The translations under genes were made by a program, and so were the position numbers. The notes under the pieces were generated by a model. The model saw only the letters and a list, made by a program, of their open reading frames with translations, had not been told where the DNA came from and searched no databases. This document shows positions 3,353-42,268 of a stretch of 64,000 nt of DNA, piece after piece. The stretch is from Candidatus Acidulodesulfobacterium ferriphilum. Lineage in GTDB: Bacteria > SZUA-79 > Acidulodesulfobacterales > Acidulodesulfobacteraceae. Positions within the stretch are counted from its first letter, which is position 1. Every line of letters starts with the position of its first letter. The stretch spans positions 1 to 64,000 of the forward strand of contig SGBD01000004.1 in the NCBI GenBank assembly GCA_004195035.1, written 5' to 3'.

Positions 3353-3655
3353 ATGGGAAAATTATTGGATTTTTATAAACAGCACCGCCGGCTATTTTTG
3401 GCGCAAAAGCACCAGAACACGTCTAAAACCCAAAAATTCAGGGATAAGGCGGCTATTAAGTTCTTTTCATTTTGCGAATCTCAAAATTTACTCCATACGG
3501 ACGGAATCCGCAAAAAGGAAGTGGTAAAAGATTTCTTCGATACTAAAGAAATGTCAAATAAATCAGACGAAACCCGCCGGAAATATTTTTTGGTAATTAG
3601 AGAAATTTATAGGCGGTTCTTTAAAATAAATATCGGAATCGAGGTTTTAAAGTGA
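3353..3655 (+). CDS. Small core-binding-like protein coupled to an integrase gene
   Basis: The frame is open from 3311, but the ATG at 3353 is preferred: it follows agaggtaact, an acceptable ribosome binding site, and opens with MGKLLDFYKQHR. The 100-residue product is helical and resembles the SAM-like N-terminal core-binding domain of tyrosine recombinases, with no catalytic domain. Its stop overlaps the GTG start of the next gene by four bases (GTGA), so the two are translationally coupled. It may be an accessory subunit or a split recombinase half. The identification is tentative. Confidence 0.5.
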   Translation: MGKLLDFYKQHRRLFLAQKHQNTSKTQKFRDKAAIKFFSFCESQNLLHTDGIRKKEVVKDFFDTKEMSNKSDETRRKYFLVIREIYRRFFKINIGIEVLK

Positions 3656-27578: not shown

Positions 27579-27677
27579 GGGTAATCCGACAATACGGCAG
27601 GAAGATCGAAAACCCCGCCAGGTTCGAGAGAAAGCAACGGTATTGATTTAGAATGTGCGTGTTTTCTCGGATTGCCC
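27579..27677 (+). ncRNA. ffs: Signal recognition particle RNA (small bacterial type)
   Basis: The 5' end gggtaatccga pairs with the 3' end tcggattgccc (27667-27677), and the apical part contains the helix 8 hallmark: CGCCAGG on one side, a purine-rich GAGAGAAAGCAACGG symmetric and tetraloop region on the other. This is the 4.5S-type SRP RNA that binds Ffh and guides membrane-protein ribosomes to FtsY. It has no Alu domain. Length of about 99 bases is normal. Confidence 0.88.
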
Positions 27678-34896: not shown

Positions 34897-35061
34897 CTTA
34901 ATCCTGCATTAGAAATTTTATTTTCTGGATTCCCGCTTTCGCGGGAATGACGACTGTTGGGTTAAGACCTTAATCTCCGCATAGTCATTTCCGCGAAAGC
35001 GGGAATCCAGATTTAACATAAGCTTTTGAGTATATAATGTAATTTCTAATGCAGGATTAAG
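34897..35061. mobile_element. MITE-like or REP-like inverted-repeat element
   Basis: Perfect 21-base terminal inverted repeats (34897-34917 and 35041-35061, starting cttaatcctgcattag). Nested inside are two inverted copies of a ctggattcccgctttcgcgg motif (about 34925-34952 and 34988-35013). The latter resembles repeats scattered through many proteobacterial genomes. No gene lies inside. It occupies most of the divergent promoter region before the selenoprotein-type gene. Confidence 0.7.
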
Positions 35062-35111
35062 ATATAAATGCCGAAAAATACCGAAACATTTTAAATGAAA
35101 AAGGAGATGAA

Positions 35112-35759
35112 ATGCCCCTTCTAAGCGAACAGGATGCCGAATTTTTAAAGAAAGATTTTGAAAGCAAACTTAAAAATAATGTTAAAATAATATTTTTCAA
35201 GTCCGAAGATGCCTGCCTGTACTGCAAGGAAGTAAAAGATATTCTTGTTGAGGTTTCAGGTTTGAGCGATAAGATAACTCTCGAAGAGTACGATTTCGAC
35301 AAAGATAAAGAAAAGGTCAAGCAGTATTCCATTAAAAGAACACCCGGAATCGTAATTGAAGGAGAAAAGGATTACGGCGTTCGTTTTTACGGCATCCCCG
35401 CAGGCCATGAGTTTATGACCTTAATCCATGGGATAATGAATGTCTCCGCCAAAAATACTGGCCTTTCCGAAAAAACTATCGAAAAACTTAAGGAAATTAT
35501 AAAGCCTTATAATATTCAGGTATTTGTTACCCCTACTTGACCCCATTGTCCGCCGGCGGCGGTTCTTGCTCATAATTTTGCCATAGAAAACGACAATATA
35601 ACGGCCGATGTTATAGAAATTCAAGAATTTCCAAATCTTGCCGACAAATATGAGGTTTTTAGCGTCCCAAAGACGGTAATGAACGATAACGGCGAAGTGG
35701 TTGGCGCCGTTCCAGAAGCTGTCTTTCTGGGGAAGGTTATGGAAGGATATACAACTTAG
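35112..35759 (+). CDS. Protein disulfide oxidoreductase-like selenoprotein (in-frame UGA = Sec)
   Basis: A 215-residue protein with two thioredoxin folds, read through the TGA at 35538-35540. Fold 1 has C35-L-Y-C38. Fold 2 begins IQVFVTPT and continues past the TGA as PHCPPAAVLAHNFAIENDN, so Sec143-P-H-C146 stands where C-P-x-C is found in relatives. A cis-proline motif (SVPKTV) follows, and the frame ends at TAG 35757. A hairpin just after the TGA (CCGCC 35550-35554, GGCGG 35558-35562) could serve as SECIS. Strong aaggag before the ATG. Likely a thiol/selenol reductase. The alternative is a nonsense mutation, but homology across the stop without frame change favours Sec. Confidence 0.75.
35541..35575 (+). 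promoter_or_regulatory. Candidate bacterial SECIS element
   Basis: Immediately downstream of the UGA: a GC-rich stem, five pairs (35550-35554 with 35558-35562) and a GGC loop. Position is right for a SelB-binding element. The stem is short and the loop small compared with classical examples, so confidence is limited. Confidence 0.4.
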
Positions 35760-40264: not shown

Positions 40265-42268
40265 TCAAATATTATCCATTAACATCATATTCTTTTTAAC
40301 CCTGTTAATTTCGTCCCTGATACGCGCTGCTTCCTCAAAATTCAGTTCTTTGGCAGCCTTTTTCATTTTTTTGGAAAGATTCCTGATTCTTTTTTCAGCC
40401 TCTTTCGGATCTATTATTAAAGGTTCTCCCCCGCTTAACCCTCCGGATAAATCGATATAATCCTGTTCAAAAATTGTCGTCAAAAGTTCGGATATATTTT
40501 TTTGAATGGATTTAGGGGTTATGTTATGTTTTTTGTTATACTCCTCTTGAATTTTCCTTCTTCTTTCCGTTTCCGATATGGCATACCGCATCGATTCGGT
40601 AATTTTATTGCCGTATAATATAACCCTGCCCTTGATATTCCTTGCCGCTCTTCCTATCGTCTGAACCAGCGATGTTTTAGAACGCAAAAAACCTTCTTTG
40701 TCGGCGTCTAAAATTCCGATCAACTCAACTTCCGGAAGGTCTAATCCTTCTCTTAAAAGATTTATTCCGACGAGGACATCGAACTCGCCAAGCCTTAACT
40801 CCCTTACAATCTTAAACCTCTCTAACGAATCTATATCCGAATGCAAATACTTTGCCTTAACCCCGCTATCTAATAAAAATTCCGTCAAATCCTCGGACAT
40901 TCTTTTTGTCAGCGTAGTAACAAGCACCCTGCCTCCCTCGTTAACGGTCTTTTTGATTTCCCCTATAATATCGTCAACCTGATTGGTTTCAGGTCTAACC
41001 TCCACATGCGGGTCTATTAAACCCGTCGGGCGGATTATCTGCTCCACGACCCGGGAGCTGACGCTTAGTTCATATTCCGCCGGCGTTGCCGAAACAAATA
41101 TAAGATTATTTATATGGGATGAAAATTCGTCGAAATTTAAAGGGCGGTTGTCGAGCGCGCAGGGAAGCCTGAATCCGTATTCGACAAGCGTCGATTTCCT
41201 TGAAATATCCCCGTTGTACATTCCCCTGATTTGCGGAACGCTGACATGGGACTCGTCAATCATGATAATAAAATCATCAGGAAAATAATCGAGAAGGGTT
41301 GGGGGCGGCTCGCCCTTTTTTCTGCCTGTTAAATGCCTCGAATAGTTTTCGATACCCGAACAATAACCCATCTCTTGAATCATTTCGAGGTCGTACATAG
41401 TCCTCTGCTCAAGCCTCTGCGCCTCGACAAGCTTGCCTGATGATTTAAGTTCTATCAATCTTTCTTTCAGCTCTCCCTTAATAGACTTAACGGCGCCCTG
41501 CAAGGTTACCTCGTCCGCGACATAATGCGACGCGGGATAAATTGCAGCCTTTGAAAGTCTCCTTATAATTGCACCTCTAAGCGGGTCGATCTCCGCTATC
41601 AAAGAAACTTCGTTTCCAAAAAACTCTATTCTTATTGCAACCTCTTCTTCGTAAGCTGGAAAAATGTCGATTATATCCCCTCTCACCCTGAATGTCCCTC
41701 TGTGAAAATCTACATCGTTTCTTTCGTATCTTATCTCGGTCAGCTTGTCCAAAATATCGCTAAAATTGACCTCGTCCCCCTTTTTTACCTCAAGGAGCAT
41801 ATTTCTATAGCTTTGCGGCGAACCAAGCCCATATATGCAGGAAACGGACGCGATAACTATAACATCCCTCCTTGAAAGAATAGAACGGGTTGCCGAATGC
41901 TTCATTTTATCTATCTGGTCGTTAATAGCGGAATCTTTTTCTATATAAAGGTCTTTTGACGGAACATATGCTTCCGGCTGATAATAATCGTAATAACTTA
42001 TAAAAAACTCGACGGCATTTTCGGGAAACAATGCTTTAAATTCGGAATAAAGCTGTCCCGCAAGGGTTTTATTCGGCGCAATTATCAAAGCCGGACTTTC
42101 GAGTTCTTTGATAACCTGCGCCATCGTAAATGTCTTTCCCGAGCCCGTCACGCCCAAAAGCGTCTGATACTTATAGCTTTTACCCTTTATCCCTTTAACT
42201 AACGAATCTATCGCCTCTGGCTGGTCGCCTGCGGGGGTGTTTTCCGAAACAAGGTTGAACAATGACAT
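40265..42268 (-). CDS. uvrB: Excinuclease ABC subunit B
   Basis: A 667-residue DEAD-like DNA repair helicase. Walker [17 protein letters not shown], the damage-gripping beta-hairpin region [18 protein letters not shown], motif DEXX as [12 protein letters not shown], helicase motifs V/VI ([23 protein letters not shown]) and the C-terminal UVR domain ([17 protein letters not shown]) are intact. Length is typical with no insert. It precedes uvrC by seven bases, giving a uvrBC operon. It loads UvrC after damage recognition by UvrA, which is not in the window. Confidence 0.97.

Follow-up and report, generated by a model that had tools for sequence, protein, structure and literature searches.

A reading frame in the 64,000-nucleotide stretch of DNA analysed here (the window) is interrupted by one in-frame TGA and then continues for 72 sense codons, without a change of frame, to a TAG (Table 1). 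This raises the question of whether the TGA ends a truncated protein or is decoded as selenocysteine (Sec). The initial annotation had described the same frame and proposed Sec insertion into a thioredoxin-fold oxidoreductase. Sequence and translation confirmed the frame, and the evidence leaves us in very little doubt that this is a single-gene selenoprotein, in which UGA 35538 would be read as Sec with SelB docked on a hairpin, giving a 215-amino-acid, two-fold disulfide oxidoreductase that would shuttle electrons. The sister species carries the ribosome-binding site AAAAGGAG at a spacing equal to that of AAGGAG in the window gene.

Table 1 Features of the predicted selenoprotein gene (window coordinates)
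Feature	Position	Strand	Detail
Predicted selenoprotein protein disulfide oxidoreductase gene	35112..35759	+	ATG start; TAG stop 35757-35759
Shine-Dalgarno-like AAGGAG	35101..35106	+	5 nt 5' of ATG 35112
Domain-1 redox motif C-L-Y-C, residues 35-38	35214..35225	+	From translation
TGA decoded as Sec143, opening the domain-2 motif U-P-H-C (143-146)	35538..35540	+	
Rest of UPHC, resolving Cys146 (TGT)	35541..35549	+	TGT in 23/23 family members
Putative SECIS hairpin CCGCC-GGC-GGCGG	35550..35562	+	5 bp, GC-rich, 3-nt loop

The read-through product (215 amino acids, Sec143) contains two thioredoxin folds by sequence match. It scored 275.2 bits against the NCBIfam profile TIGR02187 (PDO_seleno_TRX; cut-off of 185) over residues 6–211, whereas the two halves scored separately reached 161 and 92 bits, each below the cut-off. 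The halves meet at profile positions 139 and 141, and thus the TGA stands for exactly one residue. The best match to a solved structure (phmmer) was the Pyrococcus protein disulfide oxidoreductase (PDO) 1a8l, which aligned end to end (E = 1e-51) and placed its C-P-Y-C opposite U-P-H-C of the window protein. Both by score and by its two CxxC-type motifs (CLYC and UPHC), the protein can be assigned to TIGR02187, and the domain-1 CxxC is kept in all 23 family members of the codon alignment. These matches bear out the context TPT-U-PHCPP, with TGA at the first Cys of a domain-2 CPxC, and favour the disulfide oxidoreductase with two thioredoxin folds that had been predicted. This is the sole long TGA-interrupted frame in the window that is recognisable as protein; there were four other mechanical candidates, and at least one of them, at 40980, lies antisense to a 667-amino-acid frame (40265–42268).

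We then considered conservation in a family sample of 30 genomes, counting the window's own. Of these, 23 had a complete homologue whose only inner stop was a TGA, always at the same codon; in one further genome the homologue is cut by a contig end, and the remaining six genomes had none. Identity to the window gene over the whole frame ranges from 98% to 71% in the 22 other genomes, which all share the position of the TGA, and the interrupted frame is therefore not a chance occurrence. Among distant homologues without the TGA, the column held TGT or TGC in 11 of the 11 that were read codon by codon, so that only Cys or TGA, and no third residue type, was found at Sec143, as the initial annotation had expected for a Sec site.

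The same genome encodes selA (561 bits; cut-off of 268), selB (313 bits; cut-off of 242), selD (360 bits; cut-off of 125) and a tRNA-Sec, the selC product, with the anticodon TCA (71.6 bits; cut-off of 47). All four genes sought thus lie above curated cut-offs. An in-frame TGA aligned with the Cys of homologues, and selA, selB, selC and selD in the genome, are the marks by which a bacterial selenoprotein is recognised, and each is found here. A genome lacking the Sec machinery, or homologues lacking Cys at the column, would have spoken against Sec, and neither appeared in the genome or alignment data. At the level of sequence, the gene structure, the recoding signature and the Sec machinery are all in place, and the TGA in 23 of 23 family members together with Cys in distant homologues supports the Sec insertion reading.

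Two other genes of this genome carry an inner TGA. One is selD itself (contig 5, 16396–17316), in which the context HGUGCK marks a selenoprotein selenophosphate synthetase and a strong hairpin follows the TGA (minimum free energy (MFE) of −17.5). The other encodes a formate-dehydrogenase-like molybdopterin enzyme (contig 1, 713218–713991; QARI-U-HAPT), again with a hairpin 3' of the TGA. The FlpD genes of the genome were searched for an inner TGA and had none.

Directly downstream of UPHC, where the initial annotation had pointed to a GC-rich stem, lie the adjacent codons CCG CCG GCG GCG (zero-based 146–149), which form the putative hairpin CCGCC-GGC-GGCGG. They show no variation in 23 genomes, not even at third positions, as would be expected of a SECIS. 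Among the 34 amino-acid-invariant, fourfold-type columns, these four are the only ones that never vary, and codons further 3' vary freely. Were every set of four equally probable, exactly these 4 of 34 columns would be drawn by chance once in 46,376 draws, a figure that serves only as a guide as the genomes are related. In the published bacterial SECIS model, the loop has 3–9 nt with a G in its first two positions, the stem has 4–16 bp, 16–37 nt separate the UGA from the apical loop and the MFE is at most −7.5; the same source allows that some bacterial SECIS elements fall outside the model (PMC13188914). The loop (GGC, 3 nt), the stem (5 bp) and the MFE (−8.9 for the TGA plus 42 nt) agree with the model. 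By contrast, the loop starts 14 nt after the UGA in the predicted fold, about 2 nt short of the spacing rule, and the hairpin was not more stable than shuffled sequences (z = −0.12 to 0.57). The proposed SECIS fold therefore held for loop, stem, loop G and energy, but not for spacing or for stability relative to shuffles. With z near 0, folding energy is uninformative, and we rejected it as proof of a SECIS. The stem is also invariant, so covariation offers no support for pairing. Because of both, it is the lack of synonymous variation that argues for the hairpin. A search of the window with Rfam gave no match to a SECIS family and returned two tRNAs and an SRP RNA only.

One alternative accepts Sec insertion and places the true signal in another hairpin further downstream, rather than in the frozen GC stretch. 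The short spacing and the unremarkable fold of 35550–35562 both fit this alternative, as do the hairpin loops predicted for selD and the formate-dehydrogenase-like gene of the same genome, which sit 17 and 19 nt after the UGA. Against it, the adjacent codons of the frozen stretch are the only ones among the 34 amino-acid-invariant, fourfold-type columns that never vary, whereas codons further downstream, where another signal would lie, vary freely. The frozen loop begins with GG, as the model asks, and the selD hairpin has the core CCGG(A/C)GG in common with the window hairpin. We therefore consider a separate downstream signal improbable, though it is the strongest of the competing readings, and favour the frozen hairpin as the site at which SelB would dock.

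A second alternative is that the TGA is a true stop, through a sequencing error or in a two-piece pseudogene, so that only a 142-amino-acid domain is made. An ordinary gene caller would report it so, stopping at the TGA and leaving truncated pieces, as the initial annotation foresaw. However, the same TGA recurs across 23 genomes, each assembled separately, at identities as low as 71%, and the frame 3' of it is open and under strong purifying selection: in comparisons of the window gene with its relatives, dN/dS 3' of the TGA was approximately 0.04–0.07 in the pairs with calculable dS, and it was equally low 5' of the TGA. As dN/dS is low on both sides, the stretch after the TGA is translated. 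The 142-amino-acid product would also lack most of domain 2, including the resolving Cys. On the evidence of the 23 genomes and dN/dS we rejected a pseudogene or an assembly error, and we regard a true stop as highly implausible. Least credible of all is decoding of the TGA as another amino acid, whether through a Trp or Gly code used across the genome or through leaky suppression. This reading has nothing specific in its favour, and it faces the full Sec machinery of the genome and the fact that Cys is the sole alternative in the 11 homologues examined at codon level; a reassigned TGA was rejected because, of the 47 long frames in the window that do not overlap, 12 terminate at TGA.

The selenoprotein reading also extends beyond the family. 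Two Zixibacteria homologues (L072, TGA near 3385; L074, TGA near 3418) carry a TGA at the same catalytic column, and both genomes have a tRNA-Sec above the Rfam cut-off. In two tested genomes with Cys homologues, no tRNA-Sec exceeded the cut-off and the best matches were tRNA-Ser. A 36-sequence tree places the Sec forms in two separate, well supported clades and requires two label changes; its deep forks are compatible with two gains of Sec as well as with one gain and later losses. Separate gains in the window family and in Zixibacteria are therefore likely on the sequence tree but short of proof. A more ambitious proposal, which we offer as speculative and rather doubtful, combines such separate Sec origins with a compact, sequence-frozen SECIS of 13 nt that lies nearer the UGA than the model allows, possibly accompanied by matching changes in the SelB of this lineage.

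How might the selenoprotein work? By analogy with the established bacterial mechanism, we infer that tRNA-Sec, carried by SelB, would decode UGA 35538 while SelB docks on the hairpin just 3' of it. The product would be cytoplasmic; its domain 1 would carry a thiol pair (CxxC) and its domain 2 a selenol–thiol pair (UxxC). Sec143 would be exposed and make the attack, with Cys146 as the resolving residue, and this pairing would make the protein an electron shuttle between a flavoenzyme and disulfide substrates. Electrons may pass from a thioredoxin-reductase-like flavoenzyme to peroxiredoxins, protein disulfides or similar substrates. This partner and these substrates are suggested by the family: PDOs and the AhpF N-terminal domain point to a route that probably runs through a flavoprotein reductase, and disulfide reductase or isomerase activity is predicted for the window protein. 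A thioredoxin reductase is encoded on contig 6 of the same genome (57117–58007; TIGR01292, 361 bits).

No reductase or peroxiredoxin gene adjoins the selenoprotein gene. In most of the family its neighbours encode what we read from their sequences as a universal stress protein, conserved proteins of 230 and 180 amino acids, and peptide deformylase-like and methionyl-tRNA formyltransferase-like proteins, and thus gene order gives no clue to the electron partner. As a separate observation, a MITE-like or REP-like repeat of approximately 165 bp (window 34897–35061), bounded by terminal inverted repeats of 21 bp, sits 50 bp 5' of the gene and has dozens of related copies in the genome (88 matches, both strands). 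It is missing at the equivalent site in the sister species, which suggests that it probably entered the promoter region recently. Elsewhere in the window, a bacterial small SRP RNA (27583–27676, + strand) scored 42.1 bits against an Rfam threshold of 40.

Among solved structures, Pyrococcus furiosus PDO (1a8l) and Aquifex aeolicus PDO (2ywm and 2ayt) match the window protein over its full length with two thioredoxin folds; the Pyrococcus motif is C-P-Y-C and that of Aquificaceae homologues C-G-Y-C, in contrast to U-P-H-C here. The AhpF N-terminal domain (1hyu and 4o5q) is a homologous two-fold thioredoxin unit, but in AhpF this unit is joined to a flavoprotein reductase, whereas the window protein stands alone. 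The acid-mine setting and a placement near Candidatus Acidulodesulfobacterales are our assumption from sample labels and general knowledge. The text consulted of the paper describing that order does not mention selenoproteins (PMC6776010). Catalogues of selenium proteins from other bacteria have included this kind since about 2005–2006, which limits the novelty. Reviews list TIGR02187 selenoproteins as a 'homolog of AhpF N-terminal domain' (Grx-like domain protein) with UxxC, for example ABB15282.1 (PMC9312934, PMC13188914), a 2006 count places them in Carboxydothermus and in Symbiobacterium (PMC1794560), and Carboxydothermus hydrogenoformans CHY_0740, a TGA-containing 'glutaredoxin-like' gene, was found in a survey of stop codons from 2007 (PMC1914089). 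The window gene is likened to ABB15282.1 and CHY_0740 by NCBIfam family and UxxC motif, and differs from them in lineage, coming from deltaproteobacterial-type metagenome-assembled genomes (MAGs) of presumed acid-mine origin. It is a new TIGR02187 selenoprotein from a presumably acidophilic lineage, probably of the Acidulodesulfobacterales type.

Reading the TGA as Sec corrects the two gene fragments of automatic annotation into one gene, and the frozen hairpin close to the UGA provides a handle on the minimum length of a bacterial SECIS. The presumed acid-mine lineage would live under severe redox stress, and most of this uncultivated lineage has retained what is predicted to be a Sec-dependent disulfide oxidoreductase.
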